Assembly: GCA_951828585.1 (NCBI GenBank)
Contig: OX639991.1
Span: forward strand, 2,450,576 to 2,514,575
Reading direction: 5' to 3'
Length of the DNA: 64,000 nucleotides
DNA from: Longimicrobiales bacterium
Lineage (GTDB): Bacteria > Gemmatimonadota > Gemmatimonadetes > Longimicrobiales > Gaopeijiaceae
Shown here one piece after another: positions 14,282 to 34,038 of the stretch (positions are counted from its first letter, which is position 1; every line of letters starts with the position of its first letter). The notes beneath the pieces are model-generated. The model had not been told where the DNA came from. It made no database searches and worked only from the letters and a program-made list of their open reading frames with translations. Both the position numbers and the translations under genes were made by a program.

Positions 14282-14376
14282 CTCTCTCCCTCGAGGTGCC
14301 CTGAATAAGGTAGCTTGAGCCCTTCTTGTTGCAATGTTGACCAGCACAGCTTGCTTCCCAGCCGCAGAACAATAAG

Positions 14377-16144
14377 CCTGCCTTATTCATGAATTCGCGA
14401 GTCGAGGGCAAGGTAGGGGGCTGAGAGGCCTCTCACAACCCCGATGGCGGGTCGGGGGCGGTTCCGGGGGCCAAAAACAGGCGTTTCGAGTCCGAAAAGG
14501 TTAGTTTGTTCGACCGAACCGAGCCGGTTTCCGGCGCTTGGAGACACCTCGGCGTCCTTGCGGCCGCCGGGGCCGGGAAAGGGTTCGGCGCCTGGCGGCG
14601 CCCGCGCTATCCGGAGGGCCCGTGCAGGGTCGCGAGCCCGCGGGCGAGCATGCGCCAGTGCGCCGACGCGCCTCCGATGGTCATCGTAATCCGGCGGCCC
14701 GATACGGTGAAGCGCGCCGGGGTGCGGAGCACGCGGTCCGCGAGACGCCGCAGGCTCCAGCCGGTTCCGGTCATGCGCTCCAGCACGGCGCGCTGGACGT
14801 GCATGATCTGGTAGCCGAAGCCGGCGAGCAGCAGGCGCACCTGGTTGCACGCGAAGGGGTCCACACCCTTCTCGCGCTTCGCGATCTTCTTGCCCCGGTA
14901 GTGGCTCTTGCGGCGCGACGTGGACGACAGGGCCGGGGAGACGACGCTCATCAGCTCGCCCAGGTGGCCCTCCGCCTTGCCGCGCTTGCGGTACAGCGCC
15001 AGGAGGTCCTCGCCGGACATCTCCTCCGACGGCATCGAGGTCAGCAGCCAGAAGCAGCGCGGGATGAGTTCGCCCGGCCGCTCGACGACGACCTGCACGA
15101 CCCGGCGGGAACGGGACCACGACCCGGCCCGGTAGGACGACTCGCAAACCCAGGTGCGGGGCTCGCCGCCGGGCGCCCCGTTGTTCAGCGCATCCCAGAC
15201 CACGGCGTCCATGGCCGGCAGCGCCAGGCGCTTCAGCACGGCGTTGTTGCGCACCCGGGCCACGTAGTGCGTGCCCCGCTCCTCCAGCGCCGCCATCAGC
15301 GGCTCGCCGGGATATCCCGCGTCGAAGCGCACGGCGGCGTTGCCGCACAGATGCCGCTCGCCCGCTCCAGCACCTCGAGCACGAACTCCAGCCCGCCGTC
15401 CGCCGTGTGCACCTGCCCTTCGCGCAGCCGCAGGTCCAGGATGTCGCCCGTCTCCCCCGCCGACGCCACGATCGGATGATACACGCGCCGCCGGTAGTAG
15501 CCGTTCCACGCGCTGCCCGGTTGTTCCCCGTGGACCTCGACCGGCAGGCTGTCAATGTCGATCACCAGCGTCTTCGGACGCCGCCGGCCGCCCATCGCCT
15601 TCAGCCGCCACCCCGCCAGCCGCTGCAACCCCTCGCGCAGCACCTCGACGCCCTCCTTCGCCGACCACGCCGCCACCCGCCGCGACAGCGTCGGCTGCGA
15701 GGGCAGGCACCCGCCCTCGCCCAGCGGAGCCGTGCCCGCCCGGTCGCCGGTGGCCAGCCGCAGCGCCGGATCGTCGCGCAGCTCCGTCGCGTCGCCATGG
15801 TCCCGGCGGCCCTGCCCCGCCAGCAGCAGAAGCGTCCGCGCCAGCCGCCTCTGAGAATGCCGGATCCGGCGCCCGTCCCGCTTGTCCGGCAGCCCCTCCG
15901 CCAGAAACCGCGCCACCCTGCTGCGCCGCAGCAGCTCGCGCCCCGTCAGAGCCCCCGAATCCCCCGTGATCCGGTCCCGGCCGGACCCAATCCTGATCGA
16001 CCTGTTGAAGCTGAACGGCGCATCCATTATCTTCACCCCCGACGTGATGGCTGGCAGGTGCTCGCGATCCTTCTAACACTCTGAATCTAAAGCACTTGCC
16101 GCCTCACGTCGCCTCGCCTCCCGGCCATTCGTGAATAAGGGGGG
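14377..16144 (-). mobile_element. IS1380-family element, copy 1
   Basis: 1768-bp element with ends CCTGCCTTATTCATGAAT (left) and, inward from the right, CCCCCCTTATTCACGAAT. It is an inverted near-identical partner of copy 2 at 17865-19634. The exact terminal bases are inferred from where the two copies stop matching. The pair surrounds an ISL3 element. Confidence 0.85.
14607..16036 (-). pseudogene. IS1380-family transposase, copy 1 (1-nt deletion)
   Basis: Starts at ATG 16036 (MKIMDAPFSFNRS). Landmarks: LVIDIDSLPVEVHGEQ, GNAAVRFDAGYPG after the shift, and YRKRGKAEGHLGELMS. Compared with copy 2 it lacks one G near 15359 (GCGGAGC became GCGAGC), which moves the frame. The coding span is 1430 nt; an intact gene would be 1431 nt (476 codons plus stop). 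Confidence 0.85.
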
Positions 16145-16149
16145 ATAAG

Positions 16150-17792
16150 GGGTTCTTCCCCTTTTCTGGTGGGTAGCAGGTCATGTGCGCAGGCCATCGG
16201 GGTAGAGGTCGAGGCCGCCGAGGTGGAAGAGGATGGCGTTCGCGAAGCGTTCCCGGTTGCGAAAGCCGCGGCTGCGGACCTTGACTGTCTTGATCCGGCT
16301 GTTGATGCCTTCCGCCGGTCCGTTGGTGGCGCGGAGGATGATCGCATTGACGATTCCCCACAGATGCTCCCGGATCATCCGGGCGGTTTTCAGGACCGGC
16401 TCCAGATCGCAGTCCGATGCCCACTCCAGCCACCGGTGCCATCCGGCCAGCGCCCAGGTTCTGCTCCGGTAGTTCCAGAGGTTCGCGGCCGCTTCCTTCA
16501 GCTCCCAGGCCTGGGCGGTCCGGCGGGTGCCCGCACGGAGCCTCGCGAACGCCAGCTTTTCGGCGTGCGTCTTCCGTCTGGGGCCCTTCAGCCACTGCCA
16601 CTTGGTGCCCACGAGGATCCCGTTGCCCTCCTTCACCAGCGCCCGGTGCTCCGCCCGCCGGACCTTGTCCACCGCGTCGCCGAGGTGCTTGGCCACGTGG
16701 AACCGGTCGAACGCGATCTTCATCACGGCGTCCGGGATCATCGCCAGAGTCGCCGAGATGTAGGGCCCCCACATGTCCATGCTGACGCTCTCGACAGCCT
16801 CCCGGTACTTCTCTCCCATGCCCTCGTAGAACGCCAGGAGCACGTCCTTGCCCCGTCCCGGGGCGACATGCACGACGTGGCCCGTCTCCGGATTCGACAC
16901 CACGGTCACGTACTGGTGCCGGCGGCGGAACGAGGTCTCGTCCACCGAAAGGCGCCGAACCGCCTTCGTCTTGCGGCGCGCAAGTCCCCGCGCCACTGCA
17001 CGTTGCATGATTCCGTCCACCGCGTTCCAGCTCAGCCGCATCCGGCTGGCGACCGCCTGTACGCTCGCCACCTTGAGCCACCGGATCACCTCCGCCTCGA
17101 ACTCCATCGTGTACCTCGTGCTCCCCTCCGCCCACGGCACCTGAATCGTGACCACCCCGTGCTCCGGGCACTGGACCCGCGGGACATTGCAGACCAGAAA
17201 GGTCTTGTAGCCCCAGGCATCCAGGTTCCGCCACTCGCGGCGGCGCGTATCGTAGCCCGGGCACGCCTCGCCGCAGTGAGGACACCTCAACGGGCTCCCT
17301 CCGGTCCGTTGCAACTCCACCCGAAGTTCCTTGGGGTCCCGGGTCGGCTCCACCCTCGTGACCTTCCACTCCGGACCCAGGCCCAGAACGGCGTCCAGCC
17401 AGTCTCTTCCGGCCATGTCTGCGAGTTCCCTTCCGTCTCGTTGTGGACACCTGCCGGGAGCGAGCGCTCCGCGGCCTGACCACGCAATTTCCTCCGAGTC
17501 TCGCGATCCCGAAAGGCAACCCGCTACTCTCCTCCCCGTTCAGCACCAGCGCCGGTGGCTTCCGCGCCCAACCAAGTCGTTGTGCGAGGAGTGGTCGAGA
17601 GGGTCACCCCGGCCGGTCGGCGGCACGTCAGCCTTCGCCGAAGGGGATCGCCCCTCCCGTCGTCTACTACATCCTCGCTGTTCCACTCTCTCCACCCACG
17701 CTCATCCCACCGCCGCTGTTGCGAAAGCCCGCCAACCCGCCCCATAATTCGACCCTCCCCCTTGCCCGCCCACCACGACAGGGGAAGAACCC
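16150..17792 (-). mobile_element. ISL3-family element between the IS1380 copies
   Basis: Ends GGGTTCTTCCCC (16150-16161) and its inverted form GGGGAAGAACCC (17781-17792), matching the GG(G/C)TCTTTCCCC-like termini of ISL3. The element is 1643 bp and carries one intact transposase gene. About 370 bp upstream of the transposase start (17417-17792) contain no convincing gene. No matching 8-bp target duplication is seen. Confidence 0.8.
16181..17416 (-). CDS. ISL3 family transposase
   Basis: 411-residue transposase, intact. An N-terminal zinc-ribbon (CPHCGEACPGY, then CNVPRVQCPEHG) precedes an HTH and a DDE catalytic core with LSVDETSFRRRHQYVT, MDMWGPYI and FDRFHVAKHL. The C-terminal NGPAEGINSRIKTVKVRSRGFRNRERF is diagnostic for the family. 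Of all the transposase genes in the 8-20 kb belt this is the only one free of lesions, so it is the likeliest active one here. Confidence 0.93.
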   Translation of the reverse strand: MAGRDWLDAVLGLGPEWKVTRVEPTRDPKELRVELQRTGGSPLRCPHCGEACPGYDTRRREWRNLDAWGYKTFLVCNVPRVQCPEHGVVTIQVPWAEGSTRYTMEFEAEVIRWLKVASVQAVASRMRLSWNAVDGIMQRAVARGLARRKTKAVRRLSVDETSFRRRHQYVTVVSNPETGHVVHVAPGRGKDVLLAFYEGMGEKYREAVESVSMDMWGPYISATLAMIPDAVMKIAFDRFHVAKHLGDAVDKVRRAEHRALVKEGNGILVGTKWQWLKGPRRKTHAEKLAFARLRAGTRRTAQAWELKEAAANLWNYRSRTWALAGWHRWLEWASDCDLEPVLKTARMIREHLWGIVNAIILRATNGPAEGINSRIKTVKVRSRGFRNRERFANAILFHLGGLDLYPDGLRT

Positions 17793-17864
17793 AGATTCTT
17801 CGGCCTGACGGAACGATTGAGGCTAGCATTGCAGCATCTGCATCACCCAACACCGGGCTATCAG

Positions 17865-19634
17865 CCCCCCTTATTCACGAATGGCCGGGAGGCGAGGCGA
17901 CGTGAGGCGGCAAGTGCTTTAGATTCAGAGTGTTAGAAGGATCGCGAGCACCTGCCAGCCATCACGTCGGGGGTGAAGATAATGGATGCGCCGTTCAGCT
18001 TCAACAGGTCGATCAGGATTGGGTCCGGCCGGGACCGGATCACGGGGGATTCGGGGGCTCTGACGGGGCGCGAGCTGCTGCGGCGCAGCAGGGTGGCGCG
18101 GTTTCTGGCGGAGGGGCTGCCGGACAAGCGGGACGGGCGCCGGATCCGGCATTCTCAGAGGCGGCTGGCGCGGACGCTTCTGCTGCTGGCGGGGCAGGGC
18201 CGCCGGGACCATGGCGACGCGACGGAGCTGCGCGACGATCCGGCGCTGCGGCTGGCCACCGGCGACCGGGCGGGCACGGCTCCGCTGGGCGAGGGCGGGT
18301 GCCTGCCCTCGCAGCCGACGCTGTCGCGGCGGGTGGCGGCGTGGTCGGCGAAGGAGGGCGTCGAGGTGCTGCGCGAGGGGTTGCAGCGGCTGGCGGGGTG
18401 GCGGCTGAAGGCGATGGGCGGCCGGCGGCGTCCGAAGACGCTGGTGATCGACATCGACAGCCTGCCGGTCGAGGTCCACGGGGAACAGCCGGGCAGCGCG
18501 TGGAACGGCTACTATCACCGGCGCGTGTATCATCCGATCGTGGCGGCGGCGGGGGAGACGGGCGACATCCTGGATCTGCGGCTGCGCGAGGGGCAGGTGC
18601 ACACGGCGGACGGCGGGCTGGAGTTCGTCCTCGAGGTGCTGGAGCGGGCGGAGCGGCATCTGTGCGGGAAGGCAGCGGTGCGCTTCGACGCGGGATATCC
18701 CGGCGAGCCGCTGATGGCGGCGCTGGAGGAGCGGGGCACGCACTACGTGGCCCGGGTGCGCAACAACGCCGTGCTGAAGCGCCTGGCGCTGCCGGCCATG
18801 GACGCCGTGGTCTGGGATGCGCTGAACAACGGGGCGCCCGGCGGCGAGCCCCGCACCTGGGTTTGCGAGTCGTCCTACCGGGCCGGGTCGTGGTCCCGTT
18901 CCCGCCGGGTCGTGCAGGTCGTCGTCGAGCGGCCGGGCGAACTCATCCCGCGCTGCTTCTGGCTGCTGACCTCGATGCCGTCGGAGGAGATGTCCGGCGA
19001 GGACCTCCTGGCGCTGTACCGCAAGCGCGCCCGTGGCGGAGGGCCACCTGGGCGAGCTGATGAGCGTCGTCTCCCCGGCCCTGTCGTCCACGTCGCGCCG
19101 CAAGAGCCACTACCGGGGCAAGAAGATCGCGAAGCGCGAGAAGGGTGTGGACCCCTTCGCGTGCAACCAGGTGCGCCTGCTGCTCGCAGGCTTCGGCTAC
19201 CAGATCATGCACGTCCAGCGCGCCGTGCTGGAGCGCATGACCGGAACCGGCTGGAGCCTGCGGCGTCTCGCGGACCGCGTGCTCCGCACCCCGGCGCGCT
19301 TCACCGTATCGGGCCGCCGGATTACGATGACCATCGGAGGCGCGTCGGCGCACTGGCGCATGCTCGCCCGCGGGCTCGCGACCCTGCACGGGCCCTCCGG
19401 ATAGCGCGGGCGCCGCCAGGCGCCGAACCCTTTCCCGGCCCCGGCGGCCGCAAGGACGCCGAGGTGTCTCCAAGCGCCGGAAACCGGCTCGGTTCGGTCG
19501 AACAAACTAACCTTTTCGGACTCGAAACGCCTGTTTTTGGCCCCCGGAACCGCCCCCGACCCGCCATCGGGGTTGTGAGAGGCCTCTCAGCCCCCTACCT
19601 TGCCCTCGACTCGCGAATTCATGAATAAGGCAGG
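17865..19634 (+). mobile_element. IS1380-family element, copy 2
   Basis: 1770-bp inverted partner of copy 1. Left end CCCCCCTTATTCACGAAT, right end ATTCATGAATAAGGCAGG. Its right end truncates a beta-propeller gene. The length difference from copy 1 (2 bp) is fully explained by the two opposite frameshifts inside the transposase genes. Confidence 0.85.
17973..19404 (+). pseudogene. IS1380-family transposase, copy 2 (1-nt insertion)
   Basis: Starts at ATG 17973 and reads correctly through the position damaged in copy 1, but carries an extra base near 19028 (GCGCGGCAAGGCGG in copy 1, GCGCGCCCGTGGCGG here). This splits YRKR from MAEGHLGELMS. The coding span is 1432 nt against 1431 expected. So neither copy encodes a full transposase without frameshifting, although each holds the part missing from the other. 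Confidence 0.85.
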
Positions 19635-20166
19635 ATCAGAGTCACCACTGGAGTTGATACGGGTGTTGGGAAGAGCGAACGACCAAGGCGATATTTGGAG
19701 TGCGCACGCCAATCGCTACCGCGTCGTCCGTTACGGAGTTGATGGAGCAGAGAAGGCCCGCATTGACCGCATCTCCGAGTGGTTCCGGCCATACTCCGTC
19801 ACCACGCCGGGCGCGCCATTCACCGCACCTTCCGACCCGGGAGTAGCAAGCATCCACCAAGATGCGGCTGGGCTGCTCTGGGTTGCAATTGTGCGTGCTC
19901 CTCGGTCGTTTGCGGGAATGGCGGGCGGAAGAGGACTTCGCGCCGAGAGACCCCTGAATCCATACATGGATATGAATGAGTTTTTGCACACTACTATTGA
20001 GGTACTTGATCCGGTGAAGGGGGAAGTGCTTGCGCGCCATGAGGTCGCGGAATTCGTTAGGTTCGTGAATACGCCAGGTGATGACGTGTTTGTGTTTGCG
20101 CTTCGTCCCGATGCCCTTGGTAGTCTTGAATGCATCGTTACGCCTTTACGGCTTGATCGGGAGTAG
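19635..20166 (+). pseudogene. Beta-propeller protein, C-terminal fragment
   Basis: C-terminal part of a six-bladed beta-propeller (NHL/6-bladed family) protein: DIWSAHANRYRVVRYGVDG, SIHQDAAGLLWVAIV, then TIEVLDPVKGEVLARHEV. Its 5' part is cut off by IS1380 copy 2. Blade-like repeats with aromatic and LLW motifs support the assignment. The first in-frame ATG belongs to the IS end, not to this gene. Confidence 0.6.
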
Positions 20167-22711: not shown

Positions 22712-23236
22712 ATGTCGAAAAGTATATCGTTGACGGCGCTGTCTTCGGCGCTCGCGGTTTCGGCGGCGCTCGTGACGGGCAGCGCCCAGGCCCAGGATCC
22801 GGTCCACTGGACCGCGGAGATCGAAGAGGAGAGCCTCGCGCCGGGGGCGAAGGTGACCGTGGCCGTCAAGGCGACGATCGACGCGGGCTGGTACATCTAC
22901 TCGATCACGCAGGGCGAGGGCGGCCCCGTGCCCAGCAAGATCTCGCTGAGCGCGGACCAGCCCTTCACCCTGGCCGGCAAGGTCGAGGGCACCAAGCCCG
23001 TGGTGAAGTTCGACCAGAACTTCCAGATGCAGGTCGAGGTGCACGAGGGCAAGGTCTCCTACACGGTGCCGATTCAGGTGTCGGCGGAGGTCGGCGCCGA
23101 CGTCAGCGAGATGGAGGTTCGCGCCCGCTACCAGGCGTGCACCAACCGCGTCTGCCTCCCCGCGCAAACCGAGAAGATCTCGGTGCCGGTGAAGATCGTT
23201 TCGAAGAGCAAGGTCGCCAGAAAGAAGAAGGGTTAG
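22712..23236 (+). CDS. DsbD N-terminal (alpha) domain protein, separate polypeptide
   Basis: 174-residue periplasmic protein with a signal peptide ending near AQA (residue 27). It matches the DsbD-alpha immunoglobulin-like domain. The functional cysteine pair is ACTNRVCLP (Cys143, Cys148), which receives electrons from the transmembrane DsbD-beta domain and passes them to periplasmic thioredoxin-like partners. In Escherichia coli this domain is fused to the rest of DsbD; here it is encoded alone, with the beta-gamma gene 3 bp downstream. The C-terminus ends in a basic tail (SKVARKKKG). Confidence 0.82.
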   Translation: MSKSISLTALSSALAVSAALVTGSAQAQDPVHWTAEIEEESLAPGAKVTVAVKATIDAGWYIYSITQGEGGPVPSKISLSADQPFTLAGKVEGTKPVVKFDQNFQMQVEVHEGKVSYTVPIQVSAEVGADVSEMEVRARYQACTNRVCLPAQTEKISVPVKIVSKSKVARKKKG

Positions 23237-23239
23237 ACC

Positions 23240-24583
23240 ATGATCGACGGCGCCTTCTTCTGGCTCGCCATCTCGGCCGGGGCCTTCGCGCTCATCACGC
23301 CGTGCGTCTTCCCGATGATTCCCATCACGGCCTCGTACTTCGCGAAGCATGGGGGAGAGAGCCGCCGGGCCGCGGTCAAGAATGCGCTGCTCTTCGGGGG
23401 AGGGATTATAGGGACCTTCACCGCCGTGGGGCTCGCGACCTCGATTCTGGTCGGCGCCGCGGGGATGGCCCGTTTCGCGGCCAGTCCGTGGACCAACCTG
23501 GCGATCGCGGCCATGTTCGTGGCCTTCGCGCTCAACTTCTTCGGCCTGTACGAAATCCGGATCCCTTCCGGGCTGCTCACCCGCCTCGACCGGGTCAGCC
23601 GTGAGCAGGGCTCGGGCGGGGGGGGCGTGGGCGCGGTGCTCATGGGTGGGACTTTCGCGGTCACCACCTTCACCTGCACGGCCCCGTTCGTGGGCACCCT
23701 GCTCGTGCTGGCGTCGCAGGGTCAGTGGCAGCAGCCCGTGGTGGGACTCCTCGTATTCTCGACGACCTTTGCCGTGCCGTTCTTCTTCCTCGCCCTCGCA
23801 CCGCGCATGCTGAAGCGCATGCCGCGCTCCGGGGGCTGGCTCACGTCGGTCAAGGTGGTGCTGGGCTTGGTTGAGCTGGGCGCCGCGCTCAAGTTCGTCT
23901 CGAACGCGGACCTGGTGCTGGGGTGGGGGATCTTCACCCGCCAGCTGGTGCTCGTGTCGTGGGCGGTTTTGTGTGTTGTGATCGCGGCCTACATCCTGCT
24001 GAGCGCAAGGTCCGCCGCGGCCGTGGCTGCCGGGAGTGGGCCGACGGCCCGTCCCAAGCCCGTCCGCCTCGGCTTCGCGGGCGGCTTTGTCGTCCTGGGT
24101 ATCTGGCTCACCCTCGGCCTCGACGGACGCCCGCTCGGCGAGATCGAGTCCTTCCTGCCACCCCGCCTGGAGGACACCCCGGCGGGGGCGCTCGCAATGG
24201 CCGAACGGGGCGAGGAACACGATGGCCTCCACTGGTATCAGAACGACCTCGACGGCGCTCTCGCCGCCGCGCGCGAGAGTGGCAACCGCGTCTTCATCGA
24301 TTTCACCGGCTACACCTGCACGAACTGCCGCTGGATGGAGTCGAACATGTTCACGATTCCCGAAGTCGCGGAGCAGCTGGAGCGATTCATCCTGGCCCGC
24401 CTCTTCACCGACGGGGAGGGCGAGGTCTACGAGGATCAGATGGACTACCAGAAGGAGACCTTCGGTACGATCGCCCTGCCGCTGTACGCGGTGCTCGACG
24501 GCGAAGGTGAAACGATCGCCACCTTCCTTGGGCTGACCCGGGACCGCGAGGAGTTTCTGGAGTTTCTGAAGGGGGCGCTGTAG
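23240..24583 (+). CDS. DsbD beta-gamma: CcdA-like transmembrane reductase with C-terminal thioredoxin
   Basis: 447-residue membrane protein of the DsbD type. Eight transmembrane segments (about 5-295) carry the electron-relay cysteines Cys22 (ITPCVFPMIP) and Cys146 (FTCTAPF). The C-terminal thioredoxin-like gamma domain (about 330-447) has FTGYTCTNCRWME with Cys360 and Cys363 and a cis-Pro near IALPLYAVLD. It transfers reducing power from cytoplasmic thioredoxin to the outside. It starts 4 bp after the DsbD-alpha stop codon, so the pair is one operon, and is followed by five TlpA-like genes that could be its clients. Confidence 0.88.
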   Translation: MIDGAFFWLAISAGAFALITPCVFPMIPITASYFAKHGGESRRAAVKNALLFGGGIIGTFTAVGLATSILVGAAGMARFAASPWTNLAIAAMFVAFALNFFGLYEIRIPSGLLTRLDRVSREQGSGGGGVGAVLMGGTFAVTTFTCTAPFVGTLLVLASQGQWQQPVVGLLVFSTTFAVPFFFLALAPRMLKRMPRSGGWLTSVKVVLGLVELGAALKFVSNADLVLGWGIFTRQLVLVSWAVLCVVIAAYILLSARSAAAVAAGSGPTARPKPVRLGFAGGFVVLGIWLTLGLDGRPLGEIESFLPPRLEDTPAGALAMAERGEEHDGLHWYQNDLDGALAAARESGNRVFIDFTGYTCTNCRWMESNMFTIPEVAEQLERFILARLFTDGEGEVYEDQMDYQKETFGTIALPLYAVLDGEGETIATFLGLTRDREEFLEFLKGAL

Positions 24584-24645
24584 GGAGCCGAGGTTTCCGC
24601 CACGGGCCTCCACACCCCCGGCCGCGTCGAGAAAGGACGCCCGCA

Positions 24646-25596
24646 GTGCATAGAGCGAACGGACAACGGACCCGCCTCGTTGTATTCATCACTGTGGTGG
24701 CCGCCTTCGCCCTGGGGCTGGCGGTCGCCGACAGCCTTGGCTGGACCGCTCCCGAAACGGCCACCGCGCCGACCGAGTCAACCCCCCTCCCGCCCGGCTC
24801 GCTTGCCGAGTGGTCGCGACCCCACCCCCATTCCGCCGACCTCCGCCCGATCATCGACGCCGAACTGGACGCCCTGCTGGCAAAGCTCGACACGATCCTC
24901 TCCAGCTATGAACCGGGCACACAGTACTTCACCCACGGCGCCGAGTCCGCTCTCTGGCGTTTCAACTCGCTGCTGCAACAGGGCCGCCTGGCGCCGGAGC
25001 AGGCCGCGCGCATCCACGCCTACTACGACGACCTCGAGAAACAGCACCCGGACGAGACCGCGATGGTCGACCGCTCCCGCTACATGCTCGACAACCTGAT
25101 GCCGGGCCACGTCGCCCCGAACATCGTCGGGAGGGACACCAACGGGCTGCGGTTCGCGCTGGAGGACTACCGGGGCAACATCGTCGTCCTGATCTTTTCG
25201 GGAGAGTGGTGCGGGCCCTGCCGCGAGGAGTATCCGTACCAGCGCTTCATGCTCGAGCACTTCAAGGACGACAACGTGGTCCTGCTGGGTGTGAACAGCG
25301 ACGAGGATCTCGAGGTTGTCCGAACGGCGAAGAAGGAGAAAGGGCTCGCCTACCGGGTCTGGTGGGATGGGCACGACGAAGTCTCCACCGGCGGGCCGAT
25401 CGCCACCGCGTGGAACGTCTATGGATGGCCTGTCATCTACGTTCTGGACGCGGAAGGCGTGATCCGGTACGCGAGCATCAACAAGGCCGAAGTCGTTGCG
25501 GCCGTTGACGAACTGGTGCAGGATCAGAAGAATCGGGAAATACAGGCCGAGTTGGACAAGATGCCCAACCCGGAAGCGGTCCGGGCGCTGAAATAA
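24646..25596 (+). CDS. Membrane-anchored TlpA-like thioredoxin, paralogue 1 (single helical module)
   Basis: 316 residues. GTG start with GAAAGGACG upstream. One N-terminal membrane anchor (11-28), then a single helical module (about 65-148, with LWRFNSLLQQGRLAPEQAARI and DDLEKQHPDE). The linker MPGHVAPNIVG leads into a TlpA-like thioredoxin domain with WCGPC at 188-192 and cis-Pro in YGWPVIYVLD. Predicted periplasmic disulfide reductase. It lacks the first of the two helical modules seen in paralogues 2-5, so it may represent the ancestral form. It starts 62 bp after dsbD-beta-gamma. Confidence 0.85.
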   Translation: MHRANGQRTRLVVFITVVAAFALGLAVADSLGWTAPETATAPTESTPLPPGSLAEWSRPHPHSADLRPIIDAELDALLAKLDTILSSYEPGTQYFTHGAESALWRFNSLLQQGRLAPEQAARIHAYYDDLEKQHPDETAMVDRSRYMLDNLMPGHVAPNIVGRDTNGLRFALEDYRGNIVVLIFSGEWCGPCREEYPYQRFMLEHFKDDNVVLLGVNSDEDLEVVRTAKKEKGLAYRVWWDGHDEVSTGGPIATAWNVYGWPVIYVLDAEGVIRYASINKAEVVAAVDELVQDQKNREIQAELDKMPNPEAVRALK

Positions 25597-25616
25597 TGTA
25601 TACTGCACATGACATA

Positions 25617-25636
25617 ATGTAATGTTGACATTACAT
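25617..25636. promoter_or_regulatory. 20-bp palindrome upstream of TlpA-like paralogue 2
   Basis: Perfect 9-bp arms ATGTAATGT and ACATTACAT around TG, within an AT-rich island (25592-25645) that also contains GTATAC and CATAATGTAA. The ATGT...ACAT symmetry resembles operators of PadR-type repressors. This is the only strong regulatory-looking gap inside the thioredoxin array, so paralogues 2-5 may be controlled separately from paralogue 1. Confidence 0.5.
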
Positions 25637-25692
25637 CACAATCGATTTTGTCCACGGGCGGATAGAGCATCCCCAAAGCAGAAAGGCCTTCC

Positions 25693-27012
25693 ATGAAGAA
25701 GCCCCAGGCAGTCCTGATCCTCGCGATCGCGTCGTTCCTCCTCGGCGTGGTCGCGTCGGAGTTCGTCCTTCCCGGCGCCGGCGCCGCGGCCCCCGCCGAA
25801 TCCGAATGGCAGCTGCCGGTCGCGGCCCAGAGGGAGTGGTTCCCACCCATCGGCGACTACGCGACCGAAGGGGGAACGCTCGACGACGAGAAGTTCGAGG
25901 CGCTCATGACCGCGGTCGACCAGGCCATGACCGCCGAAGAGACCCTGGCCGATTTCAAGCGTGAGGCCGAAGTCCATCTCATGAACTTCATCCGCCGCCT
26001 CTCCCCCTCCGAGATCAGCGACGACCAGAAGGAACGGGTCAAGTCGTACCTCACCGAGCTCGCCGAGGCGCACCCCGATCACGCGGGCGTGATCAACGCC
26101 AGGGCATCGCTCGTCGACAGCTACTCGGAACCCAATGACCGTCCGCCACCTTCCCTGTCCGGCTCCCTGCTACTCTACGGGGACGAAATCAACCCGGACG
26201 GCGACCTCTTCGACGACGCCATGCTCGACGAGATGATGTCCCGGCTGGACGTGGCCATGAACATCCCCGAGACGCTGGCAAGCTTCGAGGAGGAAGCCAG
26301 CCTCCACTTCTGGCGCTTCAACGGCCGCCTGCAGCAGGGACGCCTGTCGCCGGAGCAGGTTGAGCGGGTCGCGGGCTACTACGAAGACCTCAAGGCGAAG
26401 CACCCCGAAGCCGCCGAGATGATCGACGACAAGATCTTCGTTGTGAGGAATCTCGTTCCCGGCAACGTCGCGCCCAACATCGTCGGGACGGACACCGACG
26501 GCGTCGAGTTCGAGCTCGAGGAGTACCGGGGCAACATCGTGGCCCTGATCTTCACCGGGCAGTGGTGCGGGCCGTGCCGGGGCGAGTATCCTTACCACCG
26601 GTTCGTGCTCGAGAACTACGGCGACCGCCCGATCGTCCTGCTGGGAGTCAACAGCGACGCGGAGCTAGAAACGGCCCGCCAGGCCAAGATCGACGAGAAT
26701 CTGCCGTACCGCACCTGGTGGGACGGCCACAGCCAGCCGGATGCCGACATCGTGGCCGCCGAGGGACCGATCGCGACCCGCTGGAATGTGACCGGATGGC
26801 CGCAGATCTACCTCCTCGACGAGGAGGGCGTGATCCGGTACGTGGGCAAGCGCGGGGGTGAGTTCATCGCGGCGCTTGATGAGCTGTGGATGGAGAAGAT
26901 CATGCGCGACTATGAGGCATCCGGGCCCGTGGGCATGAGGCCGGCGGCTCCGGCGGAAGAGGCAGGGGGCGAGACAGAGACGGACGCCGAGACCGAAACC
27001 GGAACCAGCTGA
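25693..27012 (+). CDS. Membrane-anchored TlpA-like thioredoxin, paralogue 2 (double helical module)
   Basis: 439 residues. An N-terminal anchor (5-27) is followed by two copies of a roughly 85-residue helical module: module A (about 62-145, with LADFKREAEVHLMNFIRRL) and module B (about 172-255, with LASFEEEASLHFWRFNGRL). Then comes PGNVAPNIVGTDTDG and a TlpA-like thioredoxin domain with WCGPC at 291-295 and cis-Pro in TGWPQIYLLD. The extreme C-terminus is an acidic tail. Each module keeps the pattern L-(D/E)-x-A-(M/L)-x(3-5)-E-T-L-A-x-F-E. Module function is unknown; partner docking is a guess. Confidence 0.85.
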   Translation: MKKPQAVLILAIASFLLGVVASEFVLPGAGAAAPAESEWQLPVAAQREWFPPIGDYATEGGTLDDEKFEALMTAVDQAMTAEETLADFKREAEVHLMNFIRRLSPSEISDDQKERVKSYLTELAEAHPDHAGVINARASLVDSYSEPNDRPPPSLSGSLLLYGDEINPDGDLFDDAMLDEMMSRLDVAMNIPETLASFEEEASLHFWRFNGRLQQGRLSPEQVERVAGYYEDLKAKHPEAAEMIDDKIFVVRNLVPGNVAPNIVGTDTDGVEFELEEYRGNIVALIFTGQWCGPCRGEYPYHRFVLENYGDRPIVLLGVNSDAELETARQAKIDENLPYRTWWDGHSQPDADIVAAEGPIATRWNVTGWPQIYLLDEEGVIRYVGKRGGEFIAALDELWMEKIMRDYEASGPVGMRPAAPAEEAGGETETDAETETGTS

Positions 27013-27125
27013 CACCGGGGGGGCCGGCACCCGTGCGAAAGCACCCGCGGAGTGCTACCGTGATCGGAGAATCGTAGCCGGTCCCCAGCCGCAACAGCAA
27101 TCCCCGCAGAAAAGAGAGGTCCCCC

Positions 27126-28427
27126 ATGCGGCAGCCCCTGGCAGTAGTCTGCGCAGTAATCGTTTCGTTCGGTCTGGGAATGTTCCTGGCCGGAGGCACT
27201 AGTTCGTCCGCCTCGGATGACGAGGTGGGATCGCCGCTCGACCGCATCCCCGTCGCGCTCCAGCGTGAGTGGTTCCCCCCAATCTCCGAATACGACACCG
27301 AGGGAGAGCCGCTCGACGACGAGCGCTTCGACGCCCTTCTTGCCGACCTCGAAGCGGCGCTCACCGCCGAGGAGACGCTCGCCGACTTCGAGACCGAAGC
27401 CGAGGCCCAGATCTGGAGCTTCATCCGCCGCCTGGCAGTCCCCGAGGTCACCGATGAGCAGAAGGAGCGGGCCACGGAATACCTGGGGGAACTGGCCGAG
27501 CGGCATCCGGACCATCGCTCGCTGATCGAACGGCAGGTGGGGATGCTCGATTCCTACGCCGCCTCGATGCCCGAGGCCCCGCCCGCCACCATGACCGTCA
27601 TGTTCTTCGGCATGGCCGATGAGTACGACAACGACGGCGAGCCCTTCGACGACGCACAGGTGGACCGACTGCTCGGCACGCTCGACGCCGCGCTCACGTT
27701 GCCCGCGGTGGCCGCCGATATCGAGGGCGAAGCCAGCACCCTCTTCTGGCGCTTCGGCAACCGACTGCAGTTGGGGCAGACCAGCGATGAGCAGACAGCG
27801 CGGATCGTGGCATATCTGGAGGATTTGAAGGAGAAGAACCCGGACGCCGCGGAGTTCATCGACCGCCAGCGCTTCCTGGTCGAGAATCTGGTTCCCGGCA
27901 ACGTCGCGCCGAACATCGTGGGGACGGACACCGAGGGCGTCGAGTTCGCGCTCGAGGATTACCGGGGCAGGATCGTCACCCTCATCTTCTCCGGGCAGTG
28001 GTGCGGCCCCTGTCGTGGTGAGTATCCGTACCAGCGCGGCATGCTCAAGATCTACGACGAGGAAGACGTGGTGCTCCTGGGCGTCAATAGCGACGCAAAG
28101 CTGGAAACGATCCAGCGGGCGAAGATCGACGAAGAGCTTCCGTACCGGACCTGGTGGGACGGTCACAGCCAGCCGGACGCCGACGTGGCCGCCACCGAGG
28201 GGCCGATCGCCACCGAGTGGAACGTCAGCGGTTGGCCCGCGATCTACGTCCTCGACGAAGAGGGGGTGATCCGGCACGTGAACAAGCGCGGGGGCGCCCT
28301 CGTTGCGGCGGTCGACGCGCTCGTCATTGAAAAGCGGATGCGCGGATGGGAGGCCCAGCGGGAGGCCGCCGAGGCCGAGGCGGAGACGGAGGAGGCTGGG
28401 GACGACGCGGAGGGCGAGCGCGACTAA
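27126..28427 (+). CDS. Membrane-anchored TlpA-like thioredoxin, paralogue 3 (double helical module)
   Basis: 433 residues, the same architecture as paralogue 2: anchor 5-23, helical modules about 63-145 and 173-256, WCGPC at 292-296, cis-Pro in SGWPAIYVLD, tail rich in Glu/Ala. AAGAGAGGT precedes the ATG. The leader and first 60 bases of coding sequence are nearly identical to those of paralogue 4, so the two are recent duplicates. The C-terminal acidic tail differs in length between paralogues while the catalytic region is almost invariant. Confidence 0.85.
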   Translation: MRQPLAVVCAVIVSFGLGMFLAGGTSSSASDDEVGSPLDRIPVALQREWFPPISEYDTEGEPLDDERFDALLADLEAALTAEETLADFETEAEAQIWSFIRRLAVPEVTDEQKERATEYLGELAERHPDHRSLIERQVGMLDSYAASMPEAPPATMTVMFFGMADEYDNDGEPFDDAQVDRLLGTLDAALTLPAVAADIEGEASTLFWRFGNRLQLGQTSDEQTARIVAYLEDLKEKNPDAAEFIDRQRFLVENLVPGNVAPNIVGTDTEGVEFALEDYRGRIVTLIFSGQWCGPCRGEYPYQRGMLKIYDEEDVVLLGVNSDAKLETIQRAKIDEELPYRTWWDGHSQPDADVAATEGPIATEWNVSGWPAIYVLDEEGVIRHVNKRGGALVAAVDALVIEKRMRGWEAQREAAEAEAETEEAGDDAEGERD

Positions 28428-28532
28428 GGCGGAGACGGGGCCAAGGCTGACCCGGGGGACGGCACGAGTTGACGCTGCGGTCGCCAGTCGGCGTTGCGCC
28501 GGCTGACTAAACGCCAACGCCATCTTCGTTTG

Positions 28533-28552
28533 CGGCTGCGGCACTGCAGCCG
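28533..28552 (+). terminator. Hairpin between TlpA-like paralogues 3 and 4
   Basis: CGGCTGC (28533-28539) and GCAGCCG (28546-28552) pair perfectly around a 6-nt loop, in the 200-bp gap between the two genes, the longest gap in the array. There is no T-run, so this may be an attenuator or an RNA-stability element rather than a full terminator. The rest of the gap shows nothing else. Confidence 0.3.
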
Positions 28553-28627
28553 TAGTGTGAACGTGGGTCCCAACATCGGCCCTTGATTGGCCGCATCCAG
28601 CTATCCCCGCAAGAAGAGAGGTCCACC

Positions 28628-29974
28628 ATGCGGCAGCCCCTGGCAGTAGTGTGCGCTGTAGTCGTTTCCTTCGGACTGGGGGTGCTCCTGGCGGGCAGCA
28701 TCGGAGCCCCCGACGGCGAGGCCGAGGCAAGCACCTGGGAACTCGTCGTCCCCGCGGCGGCGGAGCGCATGTGGTTCCCACCGGCCGAGCAGTACGACAA
28801 CGATGGCGAACCCCTGTCCGACGAGAGCTTCGAGGAGCTGATGGCGGCGCTCGAGGTCGCCATGACGGCCGAGGAGACCCTGGCCGACTTCGAGCGGGAG
28901 GCGGATCTGCACCTGTGGAACTTCATCCGCCGGCTCGCGATCCCCGAAGTCAGCGAAGAGCAGAAGGAGCGAATCAACGCGTACATGGACGCCTTGGCCG
29001 AGGAGCACCCCGACAGCCGGGCGATCAGCCAGCGTAGGATGCTCGTCGACAGCTATTCGTCGCCCATGCCGACGATGCCGTCGTTCGTCGGCTTTGCCAC
29101 GCTGTTCCCCGACCCGGAGGGGCTGCCCACCGAGGGTGAGCCTTTCGAGGACGCACAGGTCGATCAGCTGCTGGCGATCCTCGATGCCACGCTCAACGTT
29201 CCCGAAGCCACCGGCAACTTCGAGGAGGAAGCCTCGGTCCCCCTCTGGCAACTGGGGATGCAGCTGCAGCGCGGAGCCGTCAGCGAGGAACAGACCGCGC
29301 GCGTGGTGGCCTTTCTGGACAAGCTCGCGGACAAGTACCCGGACGGCGCGGAGAAGGTGGACCAGCAGCGGTACCTGATCGAGAACCTCATGCCGGGCAG
29401 GGTAGCCCCCAACATCGTCGGCACGGATACGGAGGGGGTCGACTTCGAACTCGAAGACTACCGGGGCAGGATCGTCGCCCTGATCTTCTCCGGGCAGTGG
29501 TGCGGGCCGTGCCGCGGCGAATACCCGTACCAGCGCGCCATGCTGGACATCTTCGAGGAGGACGATGTGGCGCTGCTGGGCGTGAACAGCGACGCCGTGC
29601 TGGACACGATCGTGCAGGCCAAGGAAAGGGAGGGCCTCGCCTACCGCACCTGGTGGGACGGGCACGACCAGCCGGACGCCGAGTATGCGGCTACCGAGGG
29701 GCCGATCGCGACGCAGTGGAACGTGCTGGGCTGGCCGCAGATCTACGTCCTGGACGAGGAGGGCGTGATCCGGCACACGGACAAGCGCGGGGGTGGGCTG
29801 ATTGCCGCGGTGGACGCGCTGCTGATGGACAAGAGGATGCGCGAGTTCGAGGCGCAGCGCGAGGCTGCGGAGGCCGAGGCGGAGGCGGAGGAGGCGGCCG
29901 AAGGGGACGAGGGGGAAGCGAACGAGGCGGGTAAGGCAGACGGCAATTCCGCGACTGAAGCGGAGAGAGGATAG
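28628..29974 (+). CDS. Membrane-anchored TlpA-like thioredoxin, paralogue 4 (double helical module)
   Basis: 448 residues from ATG 28628, chosen because AAGAGAGGT precedes it exactly as in paralogue 3; an in-frame ATG at 28583 lacks this. Anchor 5-23, modules about 63-145 and 173-255, linker MPGRVAPNIVGTDTEG, WCGPC at 291-295, cis-Pro in LGWPQIYVLD, and the longest acidic/Ala tail of the set. The stop is 5 bp before the start of paralogue 5, so the two are probably co-translated. Confidence 0.85.
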   Translation: MRQPLAVVCAVVVSFGLGVLLAGSIGAPDGEAEASTWELVVPAAAERMWFPPAEQYDNDGEPLSDESFEELMAALEVAMTAEETLADFEREADLHLWNFIRRLAIPEVSEEQKERINAYMDALAEEHPDSRAISQRRMLVDSYSSPMPTMPSFVGFATLFPDPEGLPTEGEPFEDAQVDQLLAILDATLNVPEATGNFEEEASVPLWQLGMQLQRGAVSEEQTARVVAFLDKLADKYPDGAEKVDQQRYLIENLMPGRVAPNIVGTDTEGVDFELEDYRGRIVALIFSGQWCGPCRGEYPYQRAMLDIFEEDDVALLGVNSDAVLDTIVQAKEREGLAYRTWWDGHDQPDAEYAATEGPIATQWNVLGWPQIYVLDEEGVIRHTDKRGGGLIAAVDALLMDKRMREFEAQREAAEAEAEAEEAAEGDEGEANEAGKADGNSATEAERG

Positions 29975-29979
29975 GAAAA

Positions 29980-31278
29980 ATGCGTCGATCCCTGGCAATC
30001 ATCGGTGCGGTAGTTGTTTCGTTCGGGCTGGGCGTGCTCCTGGCCGGCGGCATGGGAGCTCCCGCCGAAGAGGGAGTGGCCGTCCCCGCCGAGCTGGACA
30101 TCCCCGTCGCCGCGGAGCGTCCCTGGTTCGCGGACGCGGCCCAGTACGACAACGGGGGCGAGCCGCTCTCGGATGAGAGCTTCGAGGAGCTCATGAAGGC
30201 CCTCCACGTGGCCATGACCGACGAGGAGACTCTGGCGGACTTCGAGCGCGAGGCGGACTTCCATCTCTGGAGCTTCACGCGGCGCATCGCCGTCCCCGAA
30301 GTCGGCGAGGAGCAGCAGGAGAAGATCAACGAATACCTGGACGCCCTGGCCGAGCAGCACCCCGACAGCCGCGACATGATCGAGCGGAGCCGGAGCATGC
30401 TGGGCTACTATGCGACCGCCCTGCCGGAGATGCCGTCCTTTGTCAGCCGTGCCCTGTCGGTGCCGGGACTCATGGTGTATCCGAGCGCCGGCGAGATGTT
30501 CACGGACGCCCAGCTGGACCGGATCGTCGCGGCGCTCGATGCCGTCTTCGCCCTTCCCGAGTCAACCGCCGACTTCGAGAGTGGTGTCGAGGTCTCCATG
30601 TCGAGCATAGGCTGGGGACTGCAGCGGGGACGCATGAGCGACGAGCAGACCGCGCGCGTGGCGGAGGAGCTGGTGGCGCTAAAGGAAGCGTATCCCGCCG
30701 CCGCCGAGGCGCTAGACAGGGTGCGATTCCATATCGAATACCTGATGCCCGGCCGGGTGGCCCCCAACATCGTGGGCACGGACACCGAGGGCGTCGAGTT
30801 CGAACTGGAGGATTACCGCGGCAAGATCGTGGCCGTGATCTTCTCCGGGCAGTGGTGCGGGCCGTGCCGCGGCGAGTATCCCTACCAGCGTGCCATGCTG
30901 GATCATCTCTTCGAGGAAGAGGACGTCGCGCTGCTGGGCGTCAACAGCGACGCGGAGCTGGAGACGATCGTCGAAGCCAAGAAGGAGGAGCGCCTCGGCT
31001 ACCGGACCTGGTGGGACGGACACAGCCAGCCGGACGCCGAGATCGTGGCCGCCGAGGGGCCGATCGCGACCGAATGGGGCGTGTACGGATGGCCCACGAT
31101 CTTCGTCCTCGATCAGGGCGGTGTGATCTTGCACGTGAACAAGCGCGGGGGCGCGCTGATCGAGACGATCGACAAGCTGGTGATGGAGAAGCGGATGCGC
31201 GGGTACCAGGCGGAGGCGGAGGCGGAGGCCGAGGTCGATTCAGAGGAGCAACCTGATCCTCCCCGCCTAAACGGTTGA
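29980..31278 (+). CDS. Membrane-anchored TlpA-like thioredoxin, paralogue 5 (double helical module)
   Basis: 432 residues. Ribosome site AGGA just before the ATG. Anchor 5-23, modules about 63-145 and 175-257, WCGPC at 292-296, cis-Pro in YGWPTIFVLD. Module B is the most diverged of the array: the conserved aromatic FWRF/LWQL stretch is replaced by VSMSSIGWGL, hinting at changed specificity. The 3' end overlaps the convergent gene by 12 bp, which closes the array. Confidence 0.85.
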   Translation: MRRSLAIIGAVVVSFGLGVLLAGGMGAPAEEGVAVPAELDIPVAAERPWFADAAQYDNGGEPLSDESFEELMKALHVAMTDEETLADFEREADFHLWSFTRRIAVPEVGEEQQEKINEYLDALAEQHPDSRDMIERSRSMLGYYATALPEMPSFVSRALSVPGLMVYPSAGEMFTDAQLDRIVAALDAVFALPESTADFESGVEVSMSSIGWGLQRGRMSDEQTARVAEELVALKEAYPAAAEALDRVRFHIEYLMPGRVAPNIVGTDTEGVEFELEDYRGKIVAVIFSGQWCGPCRGEYPYQRAMLDHLFEEEDVALLGVNSDAELETIVEAKKEERLGYRTWWDGHSQPDAEIVAAEGPIATEWGVYGWPTIFVLDQGGVILHVNKRGGALIETIDKLVMEKRMRGYQAEAEAEAEVDSEEQPDPPRLNG

Positions 31279-32460: not shown

Positions 32461-34038
32461 CTAAAGATACGTCGCCGGCGGCATCCCGAAGATGTTGTCG
32501 ATCAGTTCGCGCGCCTGCGGCGGGACGCCCTTGAGCGACGATGGAATCCCCAGTGCGCGCATCTCCTCCACCGCCCGCTTCAGCACCAGCGCGCCGGTCA
32601 GATCGATCCGGCCCAGACCCTCGAGGTGAATGACCACCTCGGAAACGCCACCCGCATCCGTGAGCCGACTCATCAGCGCCTCTTCCAGGCGGGGCGCCGA
32701 GGCGAACCAGAGGATCCCCATCACCTCCAGGTGCAGCACATCCCCCTCCATCCAGCTGTGGAAGCCGGCCCGCCGTTCCCGCCACACGTGAATGGCCAGC
32801 GACATGAGGATCCCCAGCAGCAAGGCCTGTTCGATCCGCGGCGCCAGCAACAGGCACAGTGCCAGCGTGAGCCACACCACGAGCGCCTGAATCCGGGAAA
32901 GCGTCCACACGTTGAGGAGAAGGCGCGGCCGCACCAGTCCGCCCACCGCTGCGATCACGATCCCGGCGAGCACCGCCTTCGGCAGTGAGGACAGGACCCC
33001 GGCGAAGGGGAGGAAGACGAGCACGGCCAGTCCGGTGATGGCGCCGGACCAGCGGCTGCCCGCGCCCGAAAGGTGGTTGAGGCTGCTGCGCGACAGGGAT
33101 CCGTCGGCCGCCATTCCTCCGCACACCCCCGACACGAGGTTGGCCGCGCCCTGGGCCAGGAATTCGCGGTCCGGACTCCAGTGGGCCCGGTCCTGGTTGG
33201 CGAAGCTGCGGGCGATGGCGGTCGTTTCGGCAAAGCCCACCAGCGCGATCACCACGCCCGGAACGACCAGCGCCGGCAGCATCCCCCAGGGCAGGGCAAG
33301 GCTGATGGGAGGCAGCGAACCCGGGATGTCGCCCACGATCGGGCCCTGATAGCCGGCCAGCACCGAGAAGAGCACCCCACCGAGCACGGCGACCAGGGCG
33401 CCGGGAAAGAGCGGGTGGATCCGGCGCGCCAGCAGGGTGATCGCCACGGTGAGGACGGTCAGCACCAGGGCGATGAGGTTCCACGAACCCGGGCTGCCCA
33501 GGACGCGGATGGTGTTCCCGACGAGTCCGCTCTCGCCCGCCGACGCTACGCCAAGCGTGGACGGAAACTGGGACAGGAGGATGAGGATGGCCGCCCCGGA
33601 GGTGAAGCCGCGGACAACGGGCTGCGACATGAGGTAGGTGACCTTGCCGGCATGCACGATGGCGATGGCCAGCCGGGTCACGCCGACGATCAGGGCCAGA
33701 AGGGCGGCCGCGCGCACATATTCCGCGCTCCCGGGCACGGCAATGGTGACCAGGGCGCCGTGGGTCAGCAGGGCGGTGAGGGCGACGGGACCCGTCTGCA
33801 GGTAGGGGCACGATGCGAAGACGCCCGCCGCGAGGAGGGGAAGCGCCGATGCGTAGAGGCCGTGTACGCTGGGCAGGCCCGCCAGCTCGGCGTAGGCCAT
33901 GCTCTGGGGGATGATAAGCAGGGTGACGCTGAGCCCCGCGATCACGTCCCGCGAGGAGAAGCGGCGCCCGGTCCAGGCTTCGGCGCCGACGACGGGGGCG
34001 TCGCCGGCGCGCTTGCGACTCGGAACGGGGGTGCTCAT
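32461..34038 (-). CDS. SulP family anion transporter with STAS domain
   Basis: 525-residue SLC26/SulP transporter. The membrane domain (about 28-410) begins with the signature DVIAGLSVTLLIIPQSMAYAELAGLP and includes GFAETTAIARSFA. A C-terminal STAS domain (about 430-520, ILWFASAPRLEEALM, GRIDLTGALVLKRAVEEM) follows. Members move sulfate, bicarbonate or related anions. Its start overlaps the stop of the TorD-like gene (ATGA, 34035-34038), placing it in the molybdoenzyme operon. There, sulfate efflux is a sensible though unproven role. Confidence 0.88.
   Translation of the reverse strand: MSTPVPSRKRAGDAPVVGAEAWTGRRFSSRDVIAGLSVTLLIIPQSMAYAELAGLPSVHGLYASALPLLAAGVFASCPYLQTGPVALTALLTHGALVTIAVPGSAEYVRAAALLALIVGVTRLAIAIVHAGKVTYLMSQPVVRGFTSGAAILILLSQFPSTLGVASAGESGLVGNTIRVLGSPGSWNLIALVLTVLTVAITLLARRIHPLFPGALVAVLGGVLFSVLAGYQGPIVGDIPGSLPPISLALPWGMLPALVVPGVVIALVGFAETTAIARSFANQDRAHWSPDREFLAQGAANLVSGVCGGMAADGSLSRSSLNHLSGAGSRWSGAITGLAVLVFLPFAGVLSSLPKAVLAGIVIAAVGGLVRPRLLLNVWTLSRIQALVVWLTLALCLLLAPRIEQALLLGILMSLAIHVWRERRAGFHSWMEGDVLHLEVMGILWFASAPRLEEALMSRLTDAGGVSEVVIHLEGLGRIDLTGALVLKRAVEEMRALGIPSSLKGVPPQARELIDNIFGMPPATYL

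Follow-up and report, generated by a model that had tools for sequence, protein, structure and literature searches.

We examined a 64,000-nucleotide stretch of the genome of a Longimicrobiales bacterium (Gemmatimonadota; assembly GCA_951828585.1, contig OX639991.1, positions 2,450,576 to 2,514,575 of the forward strand), hereafter the window. It encodes a DsbD-like electron exporter divided between two genes, followed by five tandem thioredoxins that carry one or two copies of a helical module ahead of the redox domain. These thioredoxins represent a family that is real, well bounded and undescribed in the libraries and literature searched, and that is built from known kinds of parts. Among the 23 genomes of the genus that were surveyed, the family and the exporter are either both present or both absent. 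We lean towards reading the system as a set of envelope reductases, fed by DsbD and diversified into paralogues, in which the helical modules would dock different partners.

A split DsbD and five tandem thioredoxins

The first-pass annotation of the window had placed DsbD-alpha and DsbD-beta-gamma in separate genes, with five consecutive WCGPC proteins after them, and its coordinates and gene order are correct. DsbD-alpha (22712 to 23236, + strand) is a separate exported protein that matches DsbD_N (PF11412, 56.2 bits against a cut-off of 25, E = 4.5e-15) and has its cysteine pair in the motif YQACTNRVCLP. DsbD-beta-gamma (23240 to 24583, + strand) joins a membrane domain containing two cysteines (DsbD_TM, PF02683, 105.8 bits, E = 2.5e-30) to a C-terminal thioredoxin domain, gamma, with the motif TCTNC (Thioredoxin_7, PF13899, 45.2 bits, E = 1e-11). 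Both membrane cysteines align with CcdA (5vkv), the gamma CxxC aligns with FTGYGCVNC of 3f9u, and all six relay cysteines of the alpha, beta and gamma parts are present. The NCBIfam DsbD model (NF001419) describes a single chain, and the alpha gene (15) and beta-gamma gene (112) both fall below its cut-off of 330. The pair is DsbD-like in two chains and not a classical DsbD.

The thioredoxin genes follow on the same strand. Paralogue 1 (24646 to 25596) has an N-terminal hydrophobic segment, one helical module and a ResA-like WCGPC domain. Paralogue 2 (25693 to 27012) has the same kind of N-terminus, two modules and a WCGPC domain, and its AlphaFold2 (AF2) model reaches a predicted local distance difference test (pLDDT) score of 85.9. 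Paralogues 3 (27126 to 28427), 4 (28628 to 29974) and 5 (29980 to 31278) likewise have two modules and WCGPC; for paralogue 4 the best start is 28628, and the open reading frame listing begins at a TTG at 28583. From DsbD-alpha to paralogue 5, the intergenic gaps are 3, 62, 96, 113, 200 and 5 nucleotides. A simple promoter and terminator scan of the locus gave matches no more frequent than in shuffled sequence, so an operon is suggested by spacing alone.

Co-occurrence of the family with DsbD

Nine family members are encoded in the window genome, a single contig of 4.47 Mb: the five in the window and four elsewhere. Downstream of paralogue 5, at a distance of ~36 kb, is a sixth copy with two modules (C1:2518053), and three further copies lie ~280 kb away (C1:2759-2767 kb). 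Our survey of 23 genomes of the genus found the family in 11 and not in the remaining 12, with 1 to 13 module-bearing places per genome and ~80 members in total. DsbD-alpha was present in 11/11 family-bearing genomes and 0/12 family-less genomes, as was the cognate beta-gamma gene (at least 80% identity). Family-less genomes had at most a CcdA-like match to beta-gamma (32 to 36% identity). If phylogeny is ignored, a perfect split would arise by chance once in C(23,11) cases (~7e-7); this figure overstates the evidence, because on the SulP tree the presence pattern needs three changes (for example, one gain and two losses) and there are thus few independent events. In each of the 11 family-bearing genomes, at least one thioredoxin copy sits at the DsbD locus. 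This holds even for the minimal genome, G003, where a single lipoprotein thioredoxin is separated from DsbD by one gene. The linkage to DsbD, for which the first-pass annotation had proposed a genome-neighbourhood survey, is therefore real and strict.

Beyond the genus, the family is nearly absent. The module was confined to this one genus among 395 Gemmatimonadota genomes. When 84,980 species genomes were scanned with two peptide patterns, this lineage was recovered again, along with a single Pseudomonadales chromosome (OY282460.1, 53% identity) and two distant matches limited to the thioredoxin part, although such a scan can miss divergent members because it is based on active-site patterns. 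The single Pseudomonadales copy has two modules, lies directly downstream of a TonB-dependent receptor gene and is followed by a lipoprotein gene with thioredoxin and ankyrin domains. It is likely the product of horizontal transfer between phyla. The family-bearing genomes are marine and probably sponge-dwelling, and their genus is probably Candidatus Palauibacter. This genus and host are inferred from a report that places the sponge metagenome-assembled genomes (MAGs) of its order in one genus (PMC10469786).

Copies that are unlinked to DsbD (L067, L068, L077, L078, L081, L086, L088 and L090) recur among genes for proteins that resemble 6-bladed beta-propellers, and those of the propeller-like proteins that were scanned had no Pfam match. 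Some loci of unlinked copies also encode BlaI-like repressors with M56 (BlaR1) peptidases and a HEAT-repeat protein.

Redox domain and membrane tethers

All five paralogues in the window have AhpC-TSA/Redoxin matches with WCGPC, in agreement with the original annotation, and score 51 to 68 bits against PF00578. By sequence, their nearest relative is ResA (1st9, E = 9.4e-16 for paralogue 1). The nearest folds are ResA/TlpA/Etrx-like, with Etrx2 structures among the Foldseek matches. The domains miss the curated NCBIfam cut-offs for ResA (46 to 61 of 170 bits), TlpA (24 to 28 of 230) and DsbE (25 to 36 of 123). The first and second catalytic cysteines and the cis-proline are invariant in 63/63 full-length members, and CGPC is kept in 62 of these. 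By these residues, the family is catalytically intact throughout.

Two-module members, together with paralogue 1, begin with a hydrophobic stretch, either a membrane anchor or a signal that is cleaved off. Outside the paralogue-1 group, one-module members carry a predicted lipobox instead (for example LATAC-G, LAGAC-Q or VAAC-G). That a tether appears to be retained while its type switches points to the importance of membrane attachment.

Outside the genus, the thioredoxin domain has its nearest relatives in redoxins of G213, a genome of the same bacterial family; the two groups have a common signature, WDGG...GPI.TKWGV.GWPTI. One of these redoxins is a lipoprotein by its lipobox. They differ in having another helical N-terminus with no module match, and in two of them (L144, C74:63738-64178; L145, C18:66109-66558) an in-frame TGA stands exactly at the first active-site cysteine (FWGDW-TGA-GPCR), which makes them putative selenocysteine (WUGPC) proteins. 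We also considered selenocysteine in the sixth family copy of the window genome and rejected it, as the TGA there is a normal stop.

The helical module

One module in paralogue 1 and two in paralogues 2 to 5 were correctly counted at first pass, whereas the proposed length of ~85 residues was too short: each module measures ~95 to 105 residues. Modules 1 and 2 are homologous (hhalign probability 99.85, E = 1.5e-30), and in one-module members the retained copy is the one adjoining the thioredoxin domain. An AF2 model of the two-module region of paralogue 2 (residues 40 to 256; 25810 to 26460, + strand) is all-helical, with four to five helices per module (pLDDT 93.0; predicted template modelling score 0.85).

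None of our searches matched the module specifically, and the earlier remark that no described family with this architecture was known holds across Pfam, the PDB, Foldseek and VIA. A Pfam search with 47 family members gave weak matches at most (DUF6176 and DUF4404, best E ~0.001), with no tetratricopeptide repeat (TPR) family above its cut-off. A PDB profile search with the module returned nothing below E = 0.04. Foldseek with the helical region gave no match at E = 0.001 (best 0.23), and VIA aligned that region only with designed helical repeats and unrelated solenoids, at Z scores of up to 8.8, which the tool warns are common by chance for helical models. Nor did we find a description of a thioredoxin joined to such a module in the literature searched. 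Convincing module-only proteins were also not found: matches without an adjacent thioredoxin domain were short fragments or contig-edge pieces. The AF2 model suggests that the module is an undescribed alpha-solenoid-like domain; we do not claim a new fold. The secondary-structure (DSSP) pattern had raised the idea of EF-hand-like loop pairing, which we rejected because the ligand positions are not matched by the loops. Two fused members of 667 to 677 amino acids with four cysteines (L065:2793-4823 and L073:12553-14553) have the order module-module-thioredoxin-module-thioredoxin.

Divergence of the paralogues

The paralogues are old, position-conserved orthologue lines that are stably differentiated: in the tree, orthologue lines match gene position across genomes. 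Near-neighbour orthologues are under purifying selection, with a ratio of nonsynonymous to synonymous substitution rates of 0.23 to 0.29. Between the two-module paralogues of the window genome, identity is 44 to 71% in module 1, 26 to 55% in module 2 and 59 to 79% in the thioredoxin domain. The corresponding values for near-neighbour orthologues of island copies are 75 to 93%, 74 to 88% and 79 to 93%. The modules thus diverge faster than the thioredoxin domain, a pattern that fits partner-specific modules and is no proof of them.

A genomic island with empty sites

Genomes without the family share a backbone that, with small differences between genomes, runs from a molybdopterin oxidoreductase through SulP, a cupin and/or metzincin and nitrile hydratase alpha to gamma-glutamyltranspeptidase, without thioredoxin-family or DsbD genes. 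In family-bearing genomes, the alpha and beta-gamma genes, the tandem thioredoxins and often a further gene, P8, lie between SulP and the metzincin, and a second thioredoxin block lies beyond the cupin. Because family-less genomes keep the same neighbours, the two DsbD genes and the thioredoxins together behave like an island. In the window, its right side is marked by the conserved sulfate permease-family SulP gene, which lies outside it (32461 to 34038, - strand; PF00916, E = 6.4e-73). We considered the metzincin (DUF5117/DUF4953) and the cupin as clients of the thioredoxins and rejected both; they stay at the locus in island-less genomes and are therefore backbone genes.

P8 (21216 to 22646, + strand) sits directly upstream of DsbD-alpha. 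It is an optional island member, N-terminally anchored, with a C-terminal AhpC/TSA (TlpA-like) domain of thioredoxin fold and the motif YSCAGC (PF00578, E = 4.2e-20). Orthologues occur in six of the ten other family-bearing genomes (one partial) and in 0/12 family-less genomes.

The two thioredoxin blocks of the window genome, 280 kb apart, correspond to one cluster in relatives. Both are bordered by the same insertion sequences (IS) at ~99% identity, an IS with a DDE_Tnp_1_4 transposase and an ISL3-family element (14375 to 16144, 16151 to 17791 and 17861 to 19638 in the window; 2865 to 4635 and 16124 to 17900 in L010). Since near-identical IS copies border both blocks, an IS-linked rearrangement most likely divided the cluster.

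Discussion

In the established DsbD scheme, electrons pass from cytoplasmic thioredoxin through beta, gamma and alpha to periplasmic clients with a thioredoxin fold. Here, DsbD-beta-gamma would accept electrons from thioredoxin in the cytoplasm and carry them across the inner membrane, and its gamma domain would hand them to the separate DsbD-alpha, which would reduce the active-site disulfides of the tethered ResA-like thioredoxins. These may in turn act on envelope proteins by reducing their disulfides or, possibly, sulfenic acids or enzymes further downstream. Placed between tether and thioredoxin domain, the helical modules would be paralogue-specific, alpha-solenoid-like docking and spacing units, with the result that several partners could be served by one electron source. 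We infer this direction of flow, and DsbD-alpha as the donor, from linkage, co-occurrence and homology; the donor role is supported by known cases in which ResA/Etrx2-like domains are served by CcdA or DsbD (PMC3914529). That the modules dock partners we hold less firmly than the role of DsbD-alpha.

Several observations weigh against this reading. No client is encoded in the island. Any region under weaker constraint would likewise be expected to change faster than the catalytic domain, as the modules do. The suggested tie to dsbD stands in that some copies adjoin it in every family-bearing genome, but many further copies are unlinked. The Pseudomonadales genome lacks such a DsbD pair (a CcdA-like match at 33% identity was all that was found there), which means that the family can function, or can at any rate be maintained, with a different donor. 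These last two points would also suit functionally independent thioredoxins that merely share an island with DsbD, with DsbD-alpha serving P8 or other clients. We regard such independence as quite improbable, given that co-occurrence is 11/11 against 0/12 and holds even for the minimal loci in G003 and G018, where P8 is missing.

Other readings concern what the modules do. DsbD classically supplies DsbC and DsbG as well, and the family might comprise disulfide isomerases or chaperedoxins of the envelope that DsbD maintains in reduced form, whose modules bind unfolded chains or oligomerise (as do the DsbC dimerisation domain and the TPR part of CnoX) and whose paralogues differ by substrate class. 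A large helical part preceding the redox domain, in a generic solenoid arrangement that suits substrate binding, fits this idea. However, the active site is almost always CGPC, a thioredoxin reductase-type motif, rather than CGYC or CGHC; the all-helical model is unlike the DsbC dimerisation domain, for which there was no Pfam match; and every TPR family fell below its cut-off. We therefore consider this role unlikely. Somewhat less likely still, the modules could be mere spacers that set the reach of the active site from the membrane (one for lipoproteins, two for hydrophobic N-termini), leaving partner selection to the thioredoxin domain. The association of lipoboxes with one module and of hydrophobic segments with two would follow from this, yet paralogue 1 combines one module with a hydrophobic N-terminus, and the modules keep paralogue-specific sequence across genomes, which a pure spacer would not need. 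A more elaborate form of the DsbD-fed scheme is a trans-envelope thiol relay, in which two-module thioredoxins of the inner membrane and one-module lipoproteins on the opposite membrane pass DsbD electrons between them to paralogue-specific partners. We give it little credence; if true, it would be a private redox circuit of sponge-associated Gemmatimonadota from which a gammaproteobacterium also acquired a member.

The closest worked example is the CcdA1/CcdA2-Etrx1/Etrx2-MsrAB2 system of Streptococcus pneumoniae, where paralogous membrane-tethered TlpA/ResA-like thioredoxins are fed by CcdA proteins encoded adjacent to them (PMC3914529). That system has two module-less thioredoxins, one CcdA for each and MsrAB2 as client, whereas in the Longimicrobiales set a single split DsbD, which includes an alpha part, goes with as many as 13 thioredoxin copies and the extra modules. 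Escherichia coli DsbD (clients CcmG, DsbC and DsbG) has the same alpha, beta and gamma parts with six relay cysteines; here alpha is separate, and the proteins presumed to be clients form a family of tandem paralogues that is not known in E. coli. Relative to ResA of Bacillus subtilis and TlpA, the thioredoxin domain is nearest ResA in both sequence and fold, but it has CGPC where ResA has CEPC, stands behind one or two helical modules and scores below the ResA cut-off. The chaperedoxin CnoX (PMC6282202) resembles the family in the fusion of a thioredoxin domain to a helical repeat part. CnoX is cytoplasmic, with its TPR part after the thioredoxin domain. In the present family, the helices precede that domain and the protein is exported.

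DsbD is known to serve a small number of unlike clients. In the lineage described here, a single tethered thioredoxin has been multiplied to as many as ~13 copies, and an undescribed helical domain has been added to it and duplicated. The analysis yields that domain family with a high-confidence model, together with an island that has clean empty sites. The distribution of reductant from one electron exporter to many partners thereby becomes testable by module swapping, in a family whose copies stay distinct between species and are always accompanied by a private DsbD.

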